From assembly GCF_000443995.1 (NCBI RefSeq), contig NZ_AUMC01000008.1, positions 62,001 through 126,000 of the forward strand: a DNA stretch of 64,000 nucleotides, written 5' to 3'. The notes under the pieces are model-generated. The model searched no databases. It was not told the DNA's origin and worked only from the letters and a program-made list of their open reading frames with translations. Shown here piece after piece: positions 32,836-62,538 of this stretch. This DNA is from Bacteriovorax sp. BAL6_X. Its GTDB lineage: Bacteria; Bdellovibrionota; Bacteriovoracia; Bacteriovoracales; Bacteriovoracaceae. Numbering within the stretch: position 1 is the first letter of the stretch; every line of letters begins with the position of its first letter. The translations under genes were made by a program, and so were the position numbers.

Positions 32836-32923
32836 TACGCTCTAAAGTAACAATATTTGGTGTTAGAGTGCGATCTTATGAAAGAACTACAAGTACTGTA
32901 TAAACGCTGTACATGTTCAAAAT

Positions 32924-32947
32924 AAAAGGGCCTATTCAGGCCCTTTT
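32924..32947 (-). terminator. Intrinsic terminator of the lipoprotein gene
   Basis: AAAAGGGCCT / AGGCCCTTTT is a 10-bp stem with an ATTC loop. It lies 34 nt past the stop of the minus-strand lipoprotein gene, and the A/T-rich arms provide the uridine tract. Confidence 0.82.
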
Positions 32948-32980
32948 AAATGTGTGGTATTTTGATATATTTTCGATACT

Positions 32981-34101: not shown

Positions 34102-34130
34102 TTGACCACTTAGATAATATTACTTATATT
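34102..34130 (+). promoter_or_regulatory. Promoter of the olefin operon
   Basis: TTGACC (34102-34107), an exact 17-bp spacer and TATATT (34125-34130) match sigma70 at 5/6 and 5/6. Transcription should begin near 34137, leaving a leader of about 20 nt with AAGG as ribosome site. Confidence 0.7.
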
Positions 34131-34148
34131 TTATTTTTAAAATATAAG
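34123..34148. promoter_or_regulatory. Perfect 11-bp inverted repeat (probable operator)
   Basis: CTTATATTTTA-N4-TAAAATATAAG is a perfect palindrome of 11-bp arms. It covers the -10 box and the predicted transcription start, and its right arm includes most of the AAGG ribosome site for the regulator gene. Since transcription should start inside the repeat, a DNA operator for the dimeric winged-helix protein encoded next is more likely than an RNA hairpin. Confidence 0.65.
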
Positions 34149-34157
34149 GTCGTTAAT

Positions 34158-34805
34158 ATGGAAATTGATCGCAATATAATTGAAGAAGGTCTACTTGAGT
34201 ATCTACCTCACTATGAAGCCTTTTTTTCAAAAGTAGGATTCAAAAGAATTGAAGGTGCAATCTTTGGTGTCTTGGTCTACTCTCCAAGGCCTCTTGCTTC
34301 TGATGAGATCGAAAAAATTCTAGGTCTATCACAACCTGCCGTATCTAGTGCCCTTAAAACCTTATCGACATATAAGATGGTATTAACTACTGACCATCCA
34401 GATATTAAGCGCATGAAAATCCATGAGGCCAATGATGATGCTATCAATATCGTCTCTAATATTGTCAAAAAACGCGAACTTGAGATTATTGAAGAGTTTG
34501 AAAATATAACTGCGGAATCTCTAAAGCTTGTTCATGATGAAAAAAGGAAGAAGCGCTTAGTAAATATCCTAACAACCACTCGCTTTGCTAAGTCACTTAG
34601 CGAATTTATCATCTCAATCAGCAAAGAGCTCGACAATCCTTATATCGCCATTGAGAAATTTCCAATGGTAACAAAAGTCTTAAAAAATTCTTTTACAGAT
34701 ATCAATCAGATCAAAGCAGGAATTACTTCAGGACTAAAGAATTCTTTCTTAAATATCGTATCGAAAATAGAAAATGAAAAACATAATAATGGAGTCAATA
34801 AATGA
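34158..34805 (+). CDS. GbsR/MarR-like winged-helix transcription regulator
   Basis: The 215-residue cytoplasmic protein has a winged helix-turn-helix near residues 30-95 (RIEGAIFGVLVYSPRPLASD, then LGLSQPAVSSALKTLSTYKMV), the layout of GbsR-type MarR relatives, followed by a helical dimerisation region. It is the first gene of the olefin operon; its stop overlaps the ketosynthase ATG by 4 nt. A perfect inverted repeat sits on its own promoter, so autorepression is likely. The signal sensed is unknown; fatty-acyl derivatives or membrane state are possible but speculative. Confidence 0.82.
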   Translation: MEIDRNIIEEGLLEYLPHYEAFFSKVGFKRIEGAIFGVLVYSPRPLASDEIEKILGLSQPAVSSALKTLSTYKMVLTTDHPDIKRMKIHEANDDAINIVSNIVKKRELEIIEEFENITAESLKLVHDEKRKKRLVNILTTTRFAKSLSEFIISISKELDNPYIAIEKFPMVTKVLKNSFTDINQIKAGITSGLKNSFLNIVSKIENEKHNNGVNK

Positions 34806-36046
34806 ACCTATCAAGAGTCGTTATCACAGGTGTGGGCCTAACTGCACCAAATGGAAATAGCTTAAAAGAATTCCGTTCAGCACTTTTAGAGCAGAAGTCA
34901 GGAATCACTTACGAAGATGTACGCTTTATGGGACAGATCCCTGTTGGTAAATGTGACTTTGACGAAAGAAAACATCAAAAAGGTAAAATGAGAAAACGTG
35001 GAACACGTGTTGGTGGAATCTCTGTTTACTGCTCAAAAGAAGCATTAGACGATGCTGGATTAGATATCAATTCTATGGATAAATCTCGTATTGGGATTTA
35101 TCTGGGAATTACAGAACATGGCCCAGTTGAGACAGAGGAAGAATTATTCCAATTCTATAAGAATAACGATGAGAAGCCAGAGCTATGGACTCATCACCAT
35201 AACCCAAGAACAGTTGCCAATGCTCCAGCAGGAGAGGTTTCGTTAAACCTTGGGATCACAGGCCCACATTATACAATTGGCGCGGCATGTGCCGCTGGAA
35301 ATATGGGGGTTATCCAAGCAGTTCAAATGCTTCAACTTGGTGAAGTTGACCTTGCCCTTGCTGGTGGTGTATCAGAATCATCTAATTCATTTGGAAATCA
35401 CGTATCTTTTAAAGCTCAAGGCGCACTAGCAGATTACCCAGAAGATCAAACTCGTGCTTCTCGCCCATTAGATAATAATAGAAATGGAATTGTTATCTCA
35501 GAAGGTGGATGTGTTTATACACTAGAGCGACTTGAGGACGCTCTTGCTCGAGGTGCAAAGATTTATGGTGAAATTGCTGGCTACCATACAAATAGTGATG
35601 CAACGGACTTTGTACTTCCAAATCCTGAGCGTCAAATGGAATGTGTCCATAAGGCCATCGCCAAAGCGGGAATTACGATTAACGATATTGATCTTGTAAA
35701 TCTACACGCTACAGGGACAAAGATGGGAGATATTCAAGAAGTTGCAGGTATCAAAGAGGCATTCAAAGACTCACCAGAAGTCGCTGTTAATTGTACGAAA
35801 GGCCTAATCGGTCATGCGATGGGAGCAGCTGGAGCACTAGAGTTGGCCGGTAACCTTCCAAGTTTTGAAGACGGGCTTGTTCACCCATGTCACAAGATCG
35901 ATGAAATTGATCCAGAGTGTGCCATGGATCAACTCGTTCTTGAAGCACCACTAAAAAAAGACGTTAAATATATCCTTAATAACTCATTTGGTATGTTAGG
36001 GATCAATTCAACTTTAATTATAAAGAAATACGAAGCAAAAGCTTAA
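34802..36046 (+). CDS. FabF-like beta-ketoacyl-ACP synthase
   Basis: A 414-residue thiolase-fold condensing enzyme of the FabF type. Active-site residues align with FabF in position: Cys163 (GAACAAGNMG), His302 (LHATGTKMGD), Lys333 and His338 (TKGLIGHAMGAAG), and a gating NSFGMLGINS near the C-terminus. The flanking sequences differ from housekeeping FabF (for example NAPAGEVS and RNGIVISEGG), as in ketosynthases of specialised pathways. It is followed by a dedicated ACP, so it probably elongates or starts a chain on that ACP. No ketoreductase, dehydratase or enoylreductase gene is next to it, so these would be borrowed from general fatty-acid synthesis. Confidence 0.92.
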   Translation: MNLSRVVITGVGLTAPNGNSLKEFRSALLEQKSGITYEDVRFMGQIPVGKCDFDERKHQKGKMRKRGTRVGGISVYCSKEALDDAGLDINSMDKSRIGIYLGITEHGPVETEEELFQFYKNNDEKPELWTHHHNPRTVANAPAGEVSLNLGITGPHYTIGAACAAGNMGVIQAVQMLQLGEVDLALAGGVSESSNSFGNHVSFKAQGALADYPEDQTRASRPLDNNRNGIVISEGGCVYTLERLEDALARGAKIYGEIAGYHTNSDATDFVLPNPERQMECVHKAIAKAGITINDIDLVNLHATGTKMGDIQEVAGIKEAFKDSPEVAVNCTKGLIGHAMGAAGALELAGNLPSFEDGLVHPCHKIDEIDPECAMDQLVLEAPLKKDVKYILNNSFGMLGINSTLIIKKYEAKA

Positions 36047-36079
36047 TTTTAAAAATCATTGAAAAGACAGGAGATTAAA

Positions 36080-36325
36080 ATGACACCAGAACAAGTAAGA
36101 GAAATCGTAGTTAATATTATCGCAGACATTGCAGTTGATGATGATGTAACAACAATTGATGATGCAACTCCACTAAGAGATCAACTAGACCTAGATTCTA
36201 TGGACTTCCTTGATATCGTTATGGAACTTAAGAAACAACACTCGATTGAAGTACCTCAAGAAGATTACCCAGAGCTAGCTTCTATGAATTCTTGTGTTGC
36301 TTACCTTACACCAAAATTTCAATAA
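36080..36325 (+). CDS. Acyl carrier protein
   Basis: An 81-residue acidic four-helix carrier. LDLDSMDFLDIVMEL has the phosphopantetheine serine (Ser40) in a DSM context instead of the common DSL. I choose the ATG at 36080 with AGGAG 6-7 nt upstream. The 33-nt gap from the ketosynthase suggests one transcript, and a hairpin follows the stop. It is probably dedicated to the operon rather than the general AcpP. It should be activated by the cell's phosphopantetheinyl transferase, none of which is encoded here. Confidence 0.9.
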   Translation: MTPEQVREIVVNIIADIAVDDDVTTIDDATPLRDQLDLDSMDFLDIVMELKKQHSIEVPQEDYPELASMNSCVAYLTPKFQ

Positions 36326-36330
36326 GCTTG

Positions 36331-36359
36331 ATAAGGGCCACTTAGGTGGCCTTATTTTT
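36331..36359 (+). terminator. Intra-operon hairpin with T-rich tail (attenuator-like)
   Basis: ATAAGGGCCAC-TTAG-GTGGCCTTAT forms a 10-bp stem with one bulged G, followed by TTTTTA. It lies between the ACP and FAD enzyme genes and could reduce expression of downstream genes relative to the ketosynthase and ACP or stabilise the upstream message. Confidence 0.65.
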
Positions 36360-36372
36360 AAAAGAAATAATT

Positions 36373-37764
36373 ATGACTCAAAAATATGATGTAATAGTAA
36401 TTGGCGCTGGAATGAGCGGCCTTGCAGCAAGTATAAGGCTTGCAATGTTTGGTAAAAAAGTCGTCTGCCTTGAAAAGCATTCAATCTCTGGAGGGCTCAA
36501 CTCATACTACAGACGTGGTAAGAGAAATTTTGATGTTGGCCTTCACGCCCTTACAAATTTCGCCCAAAGAGGAGAAAGAGGAAGGCCTCTTACAAAACTT
36601 CTTAAGCAACTTAGAATCCCTTGGGCAGAGCTTGCTCTTATTGAACAAAAGCAATCAAAGATCATCTTCCCAGAAACGAGTCTTACATTTACAAACGATT
36701 TTGCGCAACTAACGCAAGACATAGCAGAGAAGTTTCCTGCATCCATTGATGAATTCAACCAATTTGTCGCCTATATTAGAGACTTCAATGAAGTCGCCCT
36801 AAATAATGAAACATTCATGGCAAAAGATGTTGCCAGAAAATATATAAAGAACGAAAAGCTTATTTCCATGATCTTTGCACCACTTCTGATTTACGGATCA
36901 GCATGGGAAGATGATATGGATTTTTCTCAATTCGTAATCATGTTTAAGAGTATCTATCTAGAGGGTTTTGCAAGACCAGATGGTGGTGTTAGGAAGATCA
37001 TTAATCTCCTACTTGATAAGTATGAAGGACTTGGGGGTGAACTTCGTTTTCGCGCAGGTGTTGCATCAATTAACACAAGTGACAGTGGTAAAGTTTGCAG
37101 CGTCACTCTTGAAAATGGTGAAGTACTTGAGTGTGATAAGGTCATCTCAAGCATGGGCCATCCAGAAACAATGGCCATCACACAAGGGCAAACTGTACAG
37201 AAAATTGCAGTTGGGCCAATGACATTTTGTGAAACGATTCTCTGTCTAGATGAGCGTCCAAAAGACTTTGATATGAATGATACAATTCTCTTTTACAACG
37301 AAAGAGAAGATTATCAGTATCGTGGGCCAAGTGATTTCATCGATAATAAGAGTGCCGTTATTTGCTTCCCAAATAACTTTGCTAGTGATGATAGTGACGA
37401 AGGAGTTATTCGTCTGACTTATATGGCTAATTATGAAAAGTGGAAGGAATTAGTAAACACAGATCGCAAGGCCTATCTTGCCATGAAGAATGAAGTCTAC
37501 GAACAATCACTTCAAACATTGAAGAATATCTATCCAAATGCATCACTGGATGTGAAATTTAAAGACGTCTTCACTCCTCATACAATTGAGCGCTACACTG
37601 GCCATCTTCGTGGTTGTGTTTACGGTTCAACAGATAAGTTAAGAGATGGAAGAACTCCAGTAGACGGCCTATATCTTTGCGGAACAGACCAAGGCTTTCT
37701 TGGCATCATTGGTTCCATGTTAAGTGGTATTTCCATGGCAAACCTTCACGGACTAATGGAATAA
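36373..37764 (+). CDS. FAD-dependent phytoene desaturase/retinol saturase-like oxidoreductase
   Basis: The 463-residue flavoprotein has the N-terminal dinucleotide motif VIVIGAGMSGLAASIRLA with the following LEKHSISGGLNS, typical of the CrtI / carotenoid isomerase / retinol saturase family. The C-terminus has the second FAD motif VDGLYLCGTDQGFLG. I choose the ATG at 36373 over the ORF start at 36346, which would run through the hairpin; the ribosome site is weak. Relatives desaturate, isomerise or saturate conjugated double bonds in isoprenoids or long chains. In this operon it might act on the acyl chain bound to the ACP or the final olefin. Substrate and direction are unknown. Confidence 0.85.
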   Translation: MTQKYDVIVIGAGMSGLAASIRLAMFGKKVVCLEKHSISGGLNSYYRRGKRNFDVGLHALTNFAQRGERGRPLTKLLKQLRIPWAELALIEQKQSKIIFPETSLTFTNDFAQLTQDIAEKFPASIDEFNQFVAYIRDFNEVALNNETFMAKDVARKYIKNEKLISMIFAPLLIYGSAWEDDMDFSQFVIMFKSIYLEGFARPDGGVRKIINLLLDKYEGLGGELRFRAGVASINTSDSGKVCSVTLENGEVLECDKVISSMGHPETMAITQGQTVQKIAVGPMTFCETILCLDERPKDFDMNDTILFYNEREDYQYRGPSDFIDNKSAVICFPNNFASDDSDEGVIRLTYMANYEKWKELVNTDRKAYLAMKNEVYEQSLQTLKNIYPNASLDVKFKDVFTPHTIERYTGHLRGCVYGSTDKLRDGRTPVDGLYLCGTDQGFLGIIGSMLSGISMANLHGLME

Positions 37765-37779
37765 AAAGGAAAAGATTAA

Positions 37780-38808
37780 ATGAAATATAATAATGTCGTT
37801 ATAGAAGACTATGCCTATATTGAACCGCCAGAGATTCTAACAAGTGATAAGTTAGAAGAATTACTTGGGCCAATTTATACAAGGCTTAAGCTTCCTCATG
37901 GAAGGCTTGAGCTAATGACAGGAATCAAGTCTCGCGGCTTTTGGCCAAACTCAACAAGGCCAAGTTCTATTGCAACAGAGGCAGGAAATAAGCTCTTAGA
38001 TAAGCTTTCAAAAAAAGGCATCAAAAAGGGCGACATTAACCTTCTTATTAATTCAAGTGTCTGTCGTGATTTCTTAGAGCCTTCCACGGCCTCAGTTATT
38101 CACGCAAACCTTGAAATGCCTAGTGAATGTATGCTCTTTGATATCTCAAACGCCTGCCTTGGAATGGTAAGTGCATGGGAGATTGTGGCCAATATGATTG
38201 AAACCGGTGCCATCAAGCGTGCTATTATTCTTTCTGGTGAAAATAGTGCTCCATTATTGGATAATACAATAAAGACACTTAATGAAGATCAAAGCATTAC
38301 AAGAAAGTCTGTAAAGAAGTACTTTGCGAACCTGACTATTGGTTCAGCAGGAGTCGCCTATTGTCTTTCTCACAAAGATGAAGCACCAAACGCTCCTCGT
38401 ATCACTTCAATCACAAATCGCAGTGACTCTAAGGCCAATAAGCTATGCCAAGGGGATGGAAATCCTGAATCACTTGTTATGGAAACAGACTCAGAAGAAT
38501 TATTAAAATATGGAAAGGCCTTAGCAAAGAAAACATTCGATGATTCAGGCCTTAACCCAAAAGAAATCGATATTGTAATTGGCCACCAAGTAGGAAAGGC
38601 CCATAAAGAAGTTGTCCTAGGAAAGTTAGGACTTAATAAGCATGATACCTTTGATACATTTGATACACTTGGAAACACTGGATCAGCTGCCCTACCAATT
38701 ACCCTTGCCAAGATGAATGACGTTAAGGGAATTGAAAAAGGCAAGAAAATTGCCCTTGTTGGCATTGGATCAGGACTATCTTGTTCTGTATTGGGAGTAA
38801 CTTGGTAA
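37780..38808 (+). CDS. oleA: OleA, acyl-CoA head-to-head condensing enzyme
   Basis: A 342-residue thiolase-superfamily protein that joins two acyl chains by Claisen condensation to a 2-alkyl-3-ketoacid. Key OleA residues are in place with the same spacing as in Xanthomonas OleA: Cys126 (NACLGM), Glu100 (FLEPSTA), His269 (GHQVG) and Asn299 (LGNTGSAALP). The 26-residue Glu-to-Cys distance separates it from FabH. AAGGAAAAG is a good ribosome site. The stop overlaps the next ATG (TAATG). It supplies the OleD-OleC-OleB sequence of reactions. Confidence 0.94.
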   Translation: MKYNNVVIEDYAYIEPPEILTSDKLEELLGPIYTRLKLPHGRLELMTGIKSRGFWPNSTRPSSIATEAGNKLLDKLSKKGIKKGDINLLINSSVCRDFLEPSTASVIHANLEMPSECMLFDISNACLGMVSAWEIVANMIETGAIKRAIILSGENSAPLLDNTIKTLNEDQSITRKSVKKYFANLTIGSAGVAYCLSHKDEAPNAPRITSITNRSDSKANKLCQGDGNPESLVMETDSEELLKYGKALAKKTFDDSGLNPKEIDIVIGHQVGKAHKEVVLGKLGLNKHDTFDTFDTLGNTGSAALPITLAKMNDVKGIEKGKKIALVGIGSGLSCSVLGVTW

Positions 38809-39689
38809 TGAATATGACAGTAAATACATGGCAGCATGAATACCCATTTAGAAATAACTTCTTTGAAATTGATGGAAAGAAATACCACTACCTAGATGAA
38901 GGAAACCCAGAAGGTGAAGTAATAATTATGCTTCATGGAAATCCAACATGGTCTTTCTATTACAGGAATATTGTCAAAGAGCTACAAGAAGACTATCGCT
39001 GTATCGTACCAGACCACTTTGGTTGCGGACTTTCAGACAAACCACAAGATTATGATTACACATTAGAAAATCATATTGATAATGTTTTAAAATTAATCGA
39101 CCAACTAGAGATAAAAATATTCAAGCTCTTAGTTCATGATTGGGGTGGCGCAATTGGAATGGGTGTTGCGACTTCAAGGCCACAAGCAGTGACAGGTGTC
39201 ATCCTACTTAATACTGCGGCTTTTAAGTCTCTTGATATTCCAAAACGTATCGCACTTTGTAAGCTTCCAGTCATTGGAGAGCCAATGGTTAGGACTTTTA
39301 ATGCCTTTGCATGGCCTGCTACATTTATGACAACGACAAAGCCATTAGCAAAGCATATTAAAGAAGGTTATCTTCACCCATATAATAATTATGCTAACCG
39401 AATTGCAACAGCTCGATTTGTTAAAGATATACCTTTATCAAGTAGTCATCCAACATATGCAAGACTTTCACAAATTGAAGATAATCTTAAAAATGTAACA
39501 TGCCCCAAGATGTTTCTTTGGGGTGCACAAGATTTTTGTTTCAACATGAAATTTCTTAAACGTTGGAAAGATTTCTACCCAAATAGTAAGTATGTCGTTT
39601 ATGAGAATGCTGGCCACTACGTAATTGAAGATGAAAGAGAGAATTGTCTTAAAGAAATAAAAGGTTTCTTAAATGAATATCGCGCATAG
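38808..39689 (+). CDS. oleB: OleB, beta-lactone decarboxylase (alpha/beta hydrolase)
   Basis: The 293-residue hydrolase-fold protein belongs to the haloalkane-dehalogenase-like OleB group, which converts the beta-lactone to the cis-olefin and CO2. LHGNPTWSF provides the oxyanion region, Asp111 (VHDWGGAIG) is the nucleophile, and NAGHYVIED holds the catalytic His. I take the ATG at 38808, one base into the oleA stop, rather than the longer ORF inside oleA. The 3' end overlaps oleC by 17 nt, recalling the OleBC fusions of Actinobacteria. Confidence 0.92.
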   Translation: MNMTVNTWQHEYPFRNNFFEIDGKKYHYLDEGNPEGEVIIMLHGNPTWSFYYRNIVKELQEDYRCIVPDHFGCGLSDKPQDYDYTLENHIDNVLKLIDQLEIKIFKLLVHDWGGAIGMGVATSRPQAVTGVILLNTAAFKSLDIPKRIALCKLPVIGEPMVRTFNAFAWPATFMTTTKPLAKHIKEGYLHPYNNYANRIATARFVKDIPLSSSHPTYARLSQIEDNLKNVTCPKMFLWGAQDFCFNMKFLKRWKDFYPNSKYVVYENAGHYVIEDERENCLKEIKGFLNEYRA

Positions 39690-41304
39690 GATTGAAGACT
39701 GGGCACAGAAAACACCTGATAAGGTTTGCATCAAGTTCCCAAGAAAAACTGGAAGCGGTTACCACTATGATGAACTCTCATTTAAAGAATTTAATGATCT
39801 AAGCTCTCATTACAGTGCAGCTTTAAGTCTAGAAGGTATCCAAAAAGGAGATAAGGTTCTTCTCTTTGTTAGGCCATCATTTGATTTCCCGGCCCTTACA
39901 TTTGCTCTATTTAAAATTGGTGCAATTCCTATCTTAATAGATCCGGGAATGGGATTAAAAAATCTTTTCAAAGCAATTAAAGACGCAAGACCAGACTATT
40001 TAATTGCTGTTAATATTGTTCATATTCTAAGAATGTTTAAAAAGGACAGCTTTAAGACTATTAAGAAGTTCTTCACGACAGAAGCTAAAATCCTTCCACA
40101 CTTAACAACAATAAGATCGTTAAAAGAAAAGGATCAACTTGAGTATGAAACACAAAAAGTAGAAGGTAGTGACCTTGCTGCCATTCTCTTTACTTCAGGA
40201 GGAACAGGAAGACCAAAGGGTGTTGAGTACACACATGAAATCTTTAATCGTCAAACAGATGTATTACAAGAGTTATTTGACTTAACACCTGAAGACGTCG
40301 ATGTTCCGGGCTTCCCACTCTTTTCATTCTTTACAATGTCCATGGGTATGACAAGTGTGATTCCTGATATGAATCCAAGTAAACCTGCAAAGTGTAACCC
40401 AGAAGCACTTGTTAAAAATATCAATGATAATGGTGCCACTTTTATTGCTGGGTCTCCAGCGATCTGGGAGCGTGTTGGAGACTATCTAGAAAAAACAAAT
40501 CAGACTCTTAAAAGCGTAAAGCATATTGTCATGTTTGGTGCTCCTGTTAGAAATGAAGTACATGAGAAACTAATAGCGCGCCTAGAAAGAGAAGATGCAG
40601 ATACGTACACACCATATGGAGCAACAGAGTGTTTACCTGTTAGTTGCTTTAATGGACGAGAAGTCTTAACCAACACACAGTTTGAAACGGCACAAGGTGG
40701 TGGTACTTGTATTGGACGAGCTTGCCCAGGAGTAGAAGTTAGAATCATCAAAGATGTCGATGGCGCAATTCAAGACATTAAAGATACAAAGCAACTTGCT
40801 ACGGGAATGGTCGGAGAAATCATCGTACGAAGTAAAACAGCTACTGCTGCCTACCATGAACTTCCTGACAAAACGAAAGAAGCTAAAATTTATGACGGTT
40901 ATACTTTTTGGCACCGAATGGGTGATCTTGGAAAGCTAGATACTCAAGGACGTGTTTGGTTCTTTGGTAGAAAGGCCCATCAGGTAAAGGCCCATGCAAC
41001 GACATATTATCCTATTTCAACAGAGGCCATTTTTAATAAGCATCCACAAGTTAATAAATCTGCACTAATTTGGATTCTTAGAAATAATCGAGTGCGTCCA
41101 GCACTAACAATAGAGCCAATAGGTAGAGTTCTCAATAAGTCTAGACTTAAACAAGAGCTTAAAGTGATGGCCAATAAGTATAGTCACACAAAAGATATCG
41201 ATGAGATTTTTATTTGTTCTAAATTCCCAGTCGATATTAGACATAATATTAAAATTGATCGCAAGGCTTTAGCTCAAATGGCCCAGCAAGGAAAACTGAG
41301 GTAA
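39673..41304 (+). CDS. oleC: OleC, beta-lactone synthetase (AMP-forming ligase superfamily)
   Basis: A 543-residue member of the acyl-adenylate ligase superfamily. LFTSGGTGRPKGVEYTH is the P-loop-like ATP site; PYGATECLPVS and GDLGKLDTQGRVWFFGRKA are the later core motifs. OleC closes the beta-hydroxy acid made by OleD into a beta-lactone. AAGG precedes the ATG. The N-terminal sequence begins like other OleC proteins. It overlaps oleB upstream and is 4 nt before oleD. Confidence 0.93.
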   Translation: MNIAHRIEDWAQKTPDKVCIKFPRKTGSGYHYDELSFKEFNDLSSHYSAALSLEGIQKGDKVLLFVRPSFDFPALTFALFKIGAIPILIDPGMGLKNLFKAIKDARPDYLIAVNIVHILRMFKKDSFKTIKKFFTTEAKILPHLTTIRSLKEKDQLEYETQKVEGSDLAAILFTSGGTGRPKGVEYTHEIFNRQTDVLQELFDLTPEDVDVPGFPLFSFFTMSMGMTSVIPDMNPSKPAKCNPEALVKNINDNGATFIAGSPAIWERVGDYLEKTNQTLKSVKHIVMFGAPVRNEVHEKLIARLEREDADTYTPYGATECLPVSCFNGREVLTNTQFETAQGGGTCIGRACPGVEVRIIKDVDGAIQDIKDTKQLATGMVGEIIVRSKTATAAYHELPDKTKEAKIYDGYTFWHRMGDLGKLDTQGRVWFFGRKAHQVKAHATTYYPISTEAIFNKHPQVNKSALIWILRNNRVRPALTIEPIGRVLNKSRLKQELKVMANKYSHTKDIDEIFICSKFPVDIRHNIKIDRKALAQMAQQGKLR

Positions 41305-41308
41305 TAAA

Positions 41309-42286
41309 ATGAAAATTCTTGTCACTGGTGCTACAGGCTTTCTTGGCCATCATATTGCGAAAGACCTTCTCAGAGAGGGCCATGAGATCATTAATTTCTC
41401 AAGACGTCACACAAGTGAAATCCAAGAGCTTGGCATAAGAACACATCAAGGTGATTTAACAAATTTTCAAGATATCAAAGAGGCCCTTAGAGATATTGAC
41501 GCTGTTTTTCACGTTGCCGGAAAAGTAGGTATGTGGGGAAGGAAGCAAGACTTTGAAAAGATCAATATCGACGGAACAAGAAATCTTCTAAAAGCAATGA
41601 AGGAAGTTGGTGTTAAATACCTGGTTTATACAAGTACACCTAGTGTTGTCTTTGGAAAAGAAGAAATTAAAAATGGTGATGAGTCACTTGCCTATCCTGA
41701 AATCTACCTTAATGAATATGCAAGAACAAAATCAGTTGCAGAAAGACTTGTCTTAGAATCAAATTCTGCACAGCTATTAACAACTGCAATTAGGCCACAC
41801 CTCATATACGGTGAAAGAGATAAGAATATCATCCCTACTTTAGTAGAAAGAGCAAAGAGTGGACGTTTAAAGATTATAGGACAAGGCAATAACTTAGTGG
41901 ATATCAACTATGTTGAAAATGCTTCACTAGCACATGTTATGGCACTAAAAGAACTTATAGCTGAAGCAAAGAATCAAGGAAAAGCTTACTTTATTGGCCA
42001 AGAGCGTCCAGTAAATCTATGGCACTTTATCAATGAGATTTTAATGGCAAAAGGTGTTGCACCATTAACAAAGAAAGTTTCGTTAAAGCTAGTTTATTTT
42101 ATTGGAGCAATTTGTGAGTTCATTTACAAGGTAATTGGCAAATATGAGGGACAGCCGGCAATGACAAGATTTGTGGCCTTACAAATGGGAACTTCACATT
42201 ACTTTAAACATGACAACGCTCTAAAGGACTTTGGCTACTCCCCTAAAATTTCAATTAAAGAATCAATTGAGAAGATAAAAAACTAA
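41309..42286 (+). CDS. oleD: OleD, NADPH-dependent 2-alkyl-3-ketoacid reductase
   Basis: The 325-residue extended short-chain dehydrogenase has the nucleotide motif GATGFLGHH and the catalytic YARTK (Tyr-x3-Lys). It reduces the OleA product to the 2-alkyl-3-hydroxyacid used by OleC. GAGGT precedes the ATG. The last 24 nt overlap the convergent uppP gene, and no terminator is seen between. With oleA, oleB and oleC the set is complete, although the gene order A-B-C-D does not follow the reaction order A-D-C-B. Confidence 0.93.
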   Translation: MKILVTGATGFLGHHIAKDLLREGHEIINFSRRHTSEIQELGIRTHQGDLTNFQDIKEALRDIDAVFHVAGKVGMWGRKQDFEKINIDGTRNLLKAMKEVGVKYLVYTSTPSVVFGKEEIKNGDESLAYPEIYLNEYARTKSVAERLVLESNSAQLLTTAIRPHLIYGERDKNIIPTLVERAKSGRLKIIGQGNNLVDINYVENASLAHVMALKELIAEAKNQGKAYFIGQERPVNLWHFINEILMAKGVAPLTKKVSLKLVYFIGAICEFIYKVIGKYEGQPAMTRFVALQMGTSHYFKHDNALKDFGYSPKISIKESIEKIKN

Positions 42287-55128: not shown

Positions 55129-56636
55129 TTAAGATTCTACTAAGTCTACTTATCGCAACAAGTACACTTGCTAACGTTAACTTTTGTAATGATGAGTTAG
55201 GAAAACTTCCTATTCTTCAAGATGGACGTATTAAACCACTTACAGTTCATTCAAAAGAAGTTATTCATCACCTGACAGGAAAGTACAAGGCCAAAGGTCA
55301 CTCATCAGTAGCGACTTTCTGTCTTCTAAGTTCAAAGGCATTTGGCCTAGAAGCACCTTTTAAATTAGAAACTAAAATTGAGCACAAGAATACGAAAGCT
55401 CTTCTTGGTGGAAAAAGCTCAATGGCACTTGATGACTTAATTGATGAGAACGTCACAATTAGAATGGCCTATCAGAAAGAAAAGGTTGAATCAGGTTATA
55501 AGAAAGAGCTTAATAAGCTTCTTAATAAAATTGCTCTTTATCAAGACATCATCAATGGAAACAACTGGCAGCTACCTGTAAGAATGGGAAATGAAATCTC
55601 GTGGGGGCCGGTAACAAGCTTTTTAACAAAAGAAAAAGTCGATGCTCTTGCCCAAGTTTCACAAACACCATTTAAGGATGTCTTTGCAAAGGCCAAGAAA
55701 GACTATATCGAAGTAAGTGGTGATAAATACCTAACAGAGTTCTTATTCGATAAATTACAGCTGCCAAAGATTGCCTTTGCCCTAACTCTTATTGGCCTAG
55801 CAGCTCTAGTTCTTTTTAAGAAATTTGGAATCGCACTTGGTCTTTCAGCGCTAACGATTATTGTTCAAACAGTATATATCACTTTAAGAGTCTATATCTC
55901 AGGTCGTGCACCAATTACAAATATGTATGAGACTGTAATCTTCTCTGGCTACGGTGCTCTACTTCTTTCAATGATTATTGGACATTTTAAGAAGGAAAAA
56001 ACATATCTCTACATGGGGCTTGCATACAACCTATGTACGCTTATGATGATTACATTTGCGACTAATATGGTTTCACCATCAATTAGTCCACTTGTTCCAG
56101 TACTAAGAGATAATTTCTGGCTAAGTACTCACGTAACAACAATCATTATGTCTTACGGTGCTCTGGCCCTAAGTTGGATTCTAGCAAATACAATTCTTTT
56201 TAAAAGAGCATTTACAGACTTTAAAGTAGAAGATGAGACATATTATAATGACCTAATCTACACGACTCTAAAATACGGAATCATCATGCTTGCGGCAGGG
56301 ATTATCCTTGGTGGTGTCTGGGCAGATTACTCTTGGGGAAGATTTTGGGGCTGGGACCCGAAAGAGACATGGTCACTAATTGTTCTATGTATCTATATGG
56401 CGATCCTTCACGGAAAGTATACAAATTGGATCACAAATAAAAGCTTCTCTGTCCTTGTTGCAGGGGCCTTTATGAGTGTTATGATGGCATGGTTTGGAGT
56501 TAACTACATCCTTGCAACAGGACTTCACTCATACGGATTCTCTCAAGGTGGAGCATATTTCTTAGGAACGTTCTTTGCGGTTCAAACAATCTTTCTAATC
56601 TTAACAGTTATAAAATCAAATCATAAAGCAGCATAA
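55125..56636 (+). CDS. ccsA: CcsA-type haem-handling cytochrome c assembly protein
   Basis: The 503-residue protein has the WWD-type haem motif WGWDPKETWSL in its C-terminal half, flanked by helices with conserved His (WLSTHVTTIIMSYG and ILHGKY). It forms the System II synthetase with ResB and attaches haem to CxxCH motifs. The N-terminal about 195 residues (signal-like segment 1-16, then a soluble region) are an extension beyond usual CcsA (about 320 residues), as found in fused or longer CcsA/CcsB proteins. Translation is coupled to resB. Confidence 0.92.
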   Translation: MIKILLSLLIATSTLANVNFCNDELGKLPILQDGRIKPLTVHSKEVIHHLTGKYKAKGHSSVATFCLLSSKAFGLEAPFKLETKIEHKNTKALLGGKSSMALDDLIDENVTIRMAYQKEKVESGYKKELNKLLNKIALYQDIINGNNWQLPVRMGNEISWGPVTSFLTKEKVDALAQVSQTPFKDVFAKAKKDYIEVSGDKYLTEFLFDKLQLPKIAFALTLIGLAALVLFKKFGIALGLSALTIIVQTVYITLRVYISGRAPITNMYETVIFSGYGALLLSMIIGHFKKEKTYLYMGLAYNLCTLMMITFATNMVSPSISPLVPVLRDNFWLSTHVTTIIMSYGALALSWILANTILFKRAFTDFKVEDETYYNDLIYTTLKYGIIMLAAGIILGGVWADYSWGRFWGWDPKETWSLIVLCIYMAILHGKYTNWITNKSFSVLVAGAFMSVMMAWFGVNYILATGLHSYGFSQGGAYFLGTFFAVQTIFLILTVIKSNHKAA

Positions 56637-56666
56637 AAAAAGGGCCTTTAAAAGGCCCTTTTTTTT
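56635..56666. terminator. Bidirectional terminator after ccsA
   Basis: AAAAAAAGGGCC-TTTAAAA-GGCCCTTTTTTTT forms a stem with A/T-rich extension and serves both ccsA and the convergent exported-protein gene, whose stop codon borders the T-run. Confidence 0.9.
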
Positions 56667-61553: not shown

Positions 61554-62453
61554 TTAAAGAAATGGGTTGGCCTCTTTAGTCAGCATTTCAATTGTTTTTC
61601 TAATACGTACAAGTTCTGTCGATTCCTTATGGTAGACAATATAGAAGCGGTCATTAGAAACCTCAAATGCTTTACCTAGAGTTTCAATCTCATCACTATA
61701 GTACCAACGCTTTAGAACGTGATTTGGAACCACAGCGATCCCAAGACCACTCTTTACTGCCTGTAACATATTTCCGTGAGAGTTTATAGAGTAGCGGACA
61801 TTTACCTTCTTAGGCTTCTTCCCATACTTTGCCACACACCAGTTGTAATAAAGACGATCACCTTGCTCAAAAAGCACAGTAGGCATCTTAGTTAATTCAT
61901 CTAATGAAGTTTGTTCTGTAATATTAAAAGGGTTTCCCTTAGGGTAAACAAGCGTAACGGCCTCTTCACTTAGTAGTAGCTTTTCACCAGACTTAGGTAG
62001 TGCCCCTTCAGGAAGTACAAGAAAGTCGATTTTATTCTCTTCAAAACTCTTAATTAAATCTTCTTGAAAGCCTAGAGAGATATGAATTGAAAGGTCTTTT
62101 TCATTCTCAGCAAAAGTTAAAAGCTCATTAGCAAGCCAAGATTTCCCAACACCAGTAAGAGTACCGATGCGTATCTTTCCTTTCATTTCATCTTTATTAT
62201 CTTTAATTTGGACAAGGGTTTCATCCATATCATTAAGAAAGTTTGTTGCAAGCTCATAGAGCTTCTCACCTTCTTGAGTTAGAACAACCTTCTTACCAGT
62301 TCTCTTAAAGGCCTTAACGCCTATTTTAGTCTCTAAATTCTTAACAGATTGAGAGATGGCAGATTGAGTTACATTTAGGTCCTCGGCTGCACGAGAAAAG
62401 CTTTCTGCACGGGCCACGGCCACGAGTGTTTGTAATTGGCTTGTTTCTAGCAT
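61554..62453 (-). CDS. LysR-family transcription regulator
   Basis: A 299-residue regulator. N-terminal winged helix-turn-helix (LVAVARAESFSRAAEDLNVT, then QSAISQSVKNLE) at about 9-50, and a periplasmic-binding-type effector domain at about 90-295 (KIRIGTLTGVGKSWLA at its start; AVKSGLGIAVVPNHVL later). LysR proteins usually control a divergent neighbour; here the gene upstream is on the same strand and the downstream one is the nucleotidyltransferase family gene. AAGG lies 8 nt before the ATG. Ligand unknown. Confidence 0.93.
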   Translation of the reverse strand: MLETSQLQTLVAVARAESFSRAAEDLNVTQSAISQSVKNLETKIGVKAFKRTGKKVVLTQEGEKLYELATNFLNDMDETLVQIKDNKDEMKGKIRIGTLTGVGKSWLANELLTFAENEKDLSIHISLGFQEDLIKSFEENKIDFLVLPEGALPKSGEKLLLSEEAVTLVYPKGNPFNITEQTSLDELTKMPTVLFEQGDRLYYNWCVAKYGKKPKKVNVRYSINSHGNMLQAVKSGLGIAVVPNHVLKRWYYSDEIETLGKAFEVSNDRFYIVYHKESTELVRIRKTIEMLTKEANPFL

Positions 62454-62538
62454 AATTTTAACCTTATCTTAAGTATAAGTTATAACTTATACCAAAAATG
62501 AACATTTGTAAATAACAACTCTGTCAAATAATTGTAAA

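Follow-up and report, generated by a model that had tools for sequence, protein, structure and literature searches.

A long-chain olefin gene set and the palindrome before it

The window examined here, a stretch of 64,000 nucleotides from Bacteriovorax sp. BAL6_X, carries on its forward strand eight genes in the order regulator, FabF, ACP, FAD oxidoreductase, OleA, OleB, OleC and OleD, which overlap or are separated by gaps of at most 21 nt. The features of the locus are as follows:

34102..34107, forward strand: -35-like hexamer TTGACC of a sigma-70-like promoter match
34117..34123, forward strand: outer left half-site ATATTAC of the putative operator, which repeats the inner left half-site in direct orientation at a distance of 9 bp upstream
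34123..34148, no strand: perfect palindrome CTTATATTTTA-TTTT-TAAAATATAAG, the inner dyad of the putative operator with its flanks
34125..34130, forward strand: -10-like hexamer TATATT of a sigma-70-like promoter match, within the left arm of the palindrome
34126..34145, no strand: 20-bp conserved core of the putative operator, family consensus ATATTTTATTTTTGTAATAT, with AAAATAT as its right half here
34137, forward strand: transcription start expected from the promoter, about 7 nt past the -10
34146..34149, forward strand: AAGG, the likely ribosome-binding site, which partly overlaps the right arm and lies 8 nt before the ATG at 34158
34158..34805, forward strand: regulator of 215 amino acids, winged-helix protein resembling the GbsR/Mj223 type, with the invariant pattern LSQ-A-S---K-L
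34802..36046, forward strand: FabF-like beta-ketoacyl-ACP synthase
36059..36325, forward strand: acyl carrier protein
36346..37764, forward strand: FAD-dependent oxidoreductase, carotenoid isomerase/CrtI-like
37780..38808, forward strand: OleA-like thiolase (NF006720 above its cut-off, 373.5 bits of 285)
38781..39689, forward strand: OleB-like alpha/beta hydrolase, start codon uncertain (best match haloalkane dehalogenase-like, 172.8 of 241)
39673..41304, forward strand: OleC-like beta-lactone synthetase (NF006754, 591 of 478; named OleC equivalogs, 467.2 of 850)
41309..42286, forward strand: OleD-like 2-alkyl-3-oxoalkanoate reductase (OleD, 354.5 of 580)

With oleA, oleB, oleC and oleD side by side, the locus holds an OleABCD cluster. 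The gene set is that of the OleABCD olefin pathway, known here from the genes alone, and it differs in being preceded by a regulator and by a FabF, an ACP and a carotenoid-isomerase-like FAD oxidoreductase of its own (34802-42286). In Halobacteriovorax marinus, OleA is reported to be active (PMC7064751). Downstream gene order was checked in the window and in 15 of the 55 regulator loci, namely those orthologue loci fetched with downstream sequence, and the same eight-gene order was found in all 15, OleD following after a gap of about 1 kb in G010. Within the same family, the seven-gene order also occurs without the regulator, and the company of FabF, ACP and FAD oxidoreductase, kept by the ole genes even there, suggests that a dedicated acyl chain feeds OleA.

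In a sample of the order (129 genomes), OleC was detected in 112 genomes and the regulator in 55, of which 54 also carried OleC at the threshold used (G066 did not). Across a sample of the phylum, the regulator occurred in 56 of 368 genomes, 55 of them from the family of the window and a single one, located at a contig end, from another. The regulator-bearing records with names (32 loci) are mostly labelled Bacteriovorax, Halobacteriovorax, Bacteriovoracaceae or Bdellovibrionales, together with one Epsilonproteobacteria and one Oligoflexia. A single genome holds two OleC copies of similar score (G089:C173 and G089:C180), attributable to strain mixture or duplication.

The original prediction placed a perfect 11-bp palindrome before a winged-helix gene, overlapping its promoter and ribosome site. 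The two arms (34123-34133 and 34138-34148) are indeed 11 nt each, 100% complementary without a mismatch and 4 nt apart, and the overlap with the TATATT of a TTGACC-N17-TATATT promoter holds, the hexamer lying in the left arm. This promoter matches the sigma-70 pattern at 10 of 12 positions and is the best promoter-like site of the operon; a second forward site with 10/12 matches extends over the gene start (34153-34180). G34148, the last base of the right arm, lies inside AAGG. The claimed overlap with the ribosome site, comprising AAG of AAGG, is real in the window; it is not general among orthologues, since the core lies anywhere from 39 to 201 bp before the protein's first aligned residue.

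When the 330-bp intergenic region was randomised 3000 times (Markov-1), arm pairs of 11 bp with a loop of 0-10 nt appeared in 0.17% of cases, and the expectation for a 64-kb window is 0.6 such pairs (mean of 10 randomisations). The palindrome is unusual for its intergenic region and, taken alone, not astonishing for the whole window. Its conservation, rather than its rarity, constitutes the strong evidence. Other inverted repeats were also noted in the window: a perfect 20-bp AT palindrome, GTATAAGTTATAACTTATAC (62473-62492), precedes the start of a LysR-like regulator gene (61554-62453, reverse strand) by about 20 bp, while GC-rich, terminator-like inverted repeats occur at 1135-1159, 32923-32948 and 56635-56665, two of them with flanking A/T runs.

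Conservation and anatomy of the site

Sites resembling ATATTTTATTTTTGTAATAT were already present at the first 18 orthologues. The 55 regulator-bearing genomes comprise 53 tested loci, G109, whose contig begins inside the regulator gene and offers no upstream sequence, and G141, in which a contig end interrupts the gene; there the site is found on another contig end, the one with the 5' end of the gene, directly before the gene start. A one-strand consensus scan returned at least 15/20 matches in 47 of the 53 loci (21 genera), against 2.9% of randomised regions. The six loci below 15/20 (G012, G031, G089, G088, G108 and G090) were omitted from the counts of anatomy, promoter geometry and distance, which therefore refer to 47 of 53 loci. 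A 38-bp matrix, built from the sites of the same 47 loci, was then applied to both strands with leave-one-genus-out training, a design meant to lessen circularity. Compared with 3180 randomised regions, all 53 loci scored above the 99% level and 51 above every single randomised region, and the window reached 25.3 with a matrix blind to its genus. Conservation upstream of orthologues had been named at the outset as the check that could overturn the prediction; with a matching site at 53/53 loci in 21/21 genera, the prediction withstood it.

The conserved element is larger than the palindrome. Its inner half-sites, which read ATATTwy and GwAATAT, are centred 13 bp from each other, and 47/47 loci share TATT at core positions 1-4 and ATA at positions 16-18. 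Exactly 9 bp upstream, the left-type sequence ATATTwy returns as a third half-site, matching at six or more of seven positions in 39 of the 47 loci (mean match 5.91, against 2.79 at distal offsets). A weaker, right-type half-site lies 9 bp downstream in 9/47 loci (mean 4.26 against 2.50). Flanking half-sites played no part in choosing the sites. All four half-sites are present and nearly perfect in G020; the window has three and lacks the outer right one.

In the whole 3.23-Mb genome of the window, the 20-bp core occurs exactly once, 19 other places carry it with 3 mismatches, and no other copy with 1 or 2 mismatches was found, so that a wider regulon in this genome was rejected. When the family sequence model was run on the same genome, the window's own site ranked first (E 0.0123), its modest score being explained by the missing outer right half-site and by the inner right half AAAATAT. 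The next match (E 0.0175, G000:C10:869594-869626) lies in a gap between other genes and has no dyad, and was taken as chance.

A natural control is provided by the 58 genomes in which OleC is present and the regulator is not. From these, 20 loci were fetched, hand-chosen for contig size and genus spread; 12 of them had FabF with 300 bp before it, and eight (L120, L121, L127, L128, L130, L131, L133 and L135) were unusable. The site was absent from the 300 bp before FabF in 12/12 loci, with matrix scores of -13.4 to -0.7 against 5.8 at the 99% level. Two counter-instances were recorded, one place elsewhere in L124 scoring 8.7 over 13 kb, and the simpler consensus matching 15/20 before FabF in L129. 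When the sequence model was scanned over 125 family genomes, 48 had a match at E <= 1e-3 and 47 of these carry the regulator, a count that reflects genome uniqueness rather than independent discovery because most of the loci were in the model. In those 47 genomes, all matches at this level adjoin the regulator. The sole exception, G076, lacks the regulator and has an operator-like match at L184 (G076:C70:5000-6600, E 5.4e-4). Matches at weaker E-values are scattered across genomes with and without the regulator.

These data bear on two readings in which the regulator would have no part at the site. At this base composition, the expectation of 0.6 arm pairs per 64 kb would allow a chance palindrome in AT-rich DNA; against this, the site is conserved across 21 genera even though the proteins are only about 33-49% identical to the window's regulator, and we rejected chance, whose probability is negligible given a site at 53/53 loci. 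The site might instead be the operator of another DNA-binding protein, the regulator controlling something else. The genome must hold other regulators, and binding of this one here is a prediction; yet the site accompanies the regulator gene, being absent from every usable copy of the operon without it, and 47 of the 48 genomes with a strong site possess the gene, which makes this reading very unlikely. Conservation of the site and its co-occurrence with the gene argue strongly that it is very probably the operator of the downstream regulator at its own operon.

The regulator and its described relatives

Matches of the regulator to Pfam MarR_2 and TrmB and to NCBIfam MreA and CudC all stay under the curated cut-offs (CudC 23.6 of 218 bits, MreA 28 of 100, MarR_2 20.4 of 27). 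Across a family alignment of 17 members, MreA and CudC match 17/17, TrmB 17/17 and MarR_2 16/17. The sequence comparison thus places the protein as a distant relative of CudC/GbsR and not as an orthologue. A profile of 17 orthologues, searched against solved structures, retrieved Mj223 (1ku9) first (E 3.3e-11). The predicted structure has a mean pLDDT of 81, with blocks of at least 83 over residues 11-150 and about 50 over the last 35 residues, and is best matched by 5jbr (Z 14.5), 1ku9 (Z 14.4) and 4nb5 (Z 13.7), the next row standing at 11.3. The alignment to 1ku9 covers 147 residues at an rmsd of 4.0 (Foldseek E 8.6e-8), and the Foldseek E-values of the three best fold matches range from 8.6e-8 to 2.4e-6. 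By profile, Foldseek and Z score alike, the fold is an Mj223-like winged helix with helical dimerisation. The profile and the matches of the predicted structure to 1ku9, 5jbr and 4nb5 make the protein look like a distant member of the Mj223/GbsR-type branch within the MarR-like regulators, extended at its C terminus.

The closest described parallel is GbsR of Bacillus subtilis (gbsAB/opuB), a MarR-type dimer modelled on Mj223, whose operator is an A/T-rich inverted repeat of half-sites separated by 4 bp and which represses neighbouring biosynthetic genes, as is predicted here (PMC7396694). The window's A/T-rich inverted repeat, with its short spacer and its position near the gene presumably controlled, agrees with the GbsR-type operator as that source describes it. 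Unlike the arrangement here, B. subtilis GbsR binds downstream of the transcription start, as a roadblock, and senses choline (PMC7396694). The window's regulator gene also differs from GbsR in being the first gene of its presumed target operon, in encoding about 55 C-terminal residues beyond the fold-matched part, and in the recurrent extra half-site 9 bp upstream. OpcR of B. subtilis is likewise a GbsR-type repressor and sterically hinders access of the polymerase, whereas its operator overlaps the -35 rather than the -10 and its targets are others (PMC7396694). CydE of Alishewanella, also a GbsR-type regulator of a local operon, differs in controlling cytochrome bd (PMC6096048) and in having sulfate as inducer (PMC6096048 and PMC6207618 for its general description; PMC6207618 for the inducer). 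Mj223 (PDB 1ku9), which heads the solved structures in the profile search and is one of the two best fold matches, is archaeal and has 152 residues, and its operator is given as unknown in PMC7396694. In the osmostress group of GbsR-type regulators, an aromatic cage for choline/betaine is described (PMC6207618).

Promoter geometry and the proposed switch

Upstream of the core, T[TAG]GAC occurs at 12-62 bp in 32/47 loci, against 11% of randomised regions and 10% of 322 more distal windows; this excess near the core makes a real -35 element likely. The idea that every locus has its -35 at N16-18 from TATATT was rejected, at least 4/6 positions being found in 23% of the 47 loci and in 14% of the control. 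With sigma-70 weights, the mean best promoter score was 7.16 over the 47 loci against 5.60 in randomised regions. The window (11.0) stood level with its congener G005 at the top of the 47, and G005 shares its geometry, its -10 TATATT likewise falling within the left arm. For other genera, the top-scoring -10 candidate is mostly found 10-26 bp upstream of the core, exemplified by TTGACG-N17-TAATCT at -25 in G094 and -16 in G092, and the operator would therefore cover the start and the early transcribed region. By the same weights, some loci had no convincing promoter (e.g. G001 at 3.6).

Two further readings concern what the site does. A hairpin in the leader RNA could hide the ribosome site of the regulator, as a thermometer or attenuator: the 46-nt RNA at 34120-34165 folds at -9 kcal/mol (z -3.37), the right arm contains AAG of the ribosome site, and covariation of the core pairs exceeds that of most shuffles (16/500 reach it), which a DNA dyad equally predicts. 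The covariation alignment comprised 38 of 46 distinct operator segments, with the window's own site excluded and eight segments, mostly close copies within one genus, dropped by hand; the aligner shifted one row (G097) by 9 bp, the 9-bp repeat making its placement ambiguous. Within these 38 sequences, three pairs never vary in base, and two of the eight fail to pair, one in 12 sequences and the other in 18. A transcript from the TTGACC/TATATT promoter would start at about 34137, inside the palindrome and without the left arm, and that RNA folds poorly (z -0.69). Together with the variable distance between the site and the first aligned residue, the likely start and the often broken pairs leave the hairpin a highly improbable explanation. 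More weight belongs to the possibility, still an unlikely one, that the regulator binds here and acts as a post-initiation roadblock or as an activator instead of blocking the -10. Bacillus GbsR is such a roadblock downstream of the start (PMC7396694), and the likely -10 stands upstream of the core in several genera, as described above; the -10-like hexamer of the window, lying inside the palindrome, favours exclusion of the polymerase. A site over the -10 or the start rarely activates, and from the position of the site we infer repression rather than activation. By analogy with the GbsR group, in which OpcR hinders the polymerase and GbsR acts as a roadblock, both promoter arrangements would fit repression (PMC7396694).

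The reading that we prefer, and regard as highly probable, is that the regulator binds the palindrome-centred operator and represses its own eight-gene operon. Of the self-repression by -10 blockage originally proposed, the operator at the regulator's own operon has strong support, both from conservation and from the joint presence of site and gene, and the -10 overlap holds in the window and some congeners; in other genera, the likely -10 mostly lies upstream of the core, and this variation leaves the exact point of blockage tentative. The switch that we infer adds binding, repression, a dimer arrangement and a ligand to the computed site, its conservation and co-occurrence with the gene, the gene order and the fold. 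A regulator dimer would bind the inverted half-sites ATATTwy...GwAATAT, with centres 13 bp apart, and the extra half-site 9 bp upstream, joined in some relatives by one 9 bp downstream, would probably take a second dimer or lengthen the contact. In the window, occupation of the site would cover the -10 (TATATT) together with the expected start, so that RNA polymerase could not use the promoter; in relatives whose -10 is placed further upstream, this operator would cause the block at or just past the start. The regulator, FabF, ACP, FAD oxidoreductase and OleABCD would be switched off together, the regulator limiting its own amount, until release by a ligand, perhaps an acyl thioester or a lipid signal.

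The kind of switch is ordinary; it is the pathway, long-chain olefin synthesis, for which no described regulator of an ole operon was found among the open-access papers searched. More speculatively, the regulator may be dedicated to the repression of head-to-head olefin synthesis and almost exclusive to predators of the Bacteriovoracaceae type; three or four half-sites at 9-13-9 bp spacing would then bind two cooperative dimers, and an acyl-chain or membrane-lipid signal would switch synthesis sharply in the predatory cycle. The proposal gives long-chain olefin synthesis in bacteria a concrete switch that can be tested, and the 38-bp matrix, together with the natural control set of operons with and without the regulator, provides a means to study how an AT-rich operator is read. 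The inducer, once found, would hint at the role of olefins in predatory bacteria.
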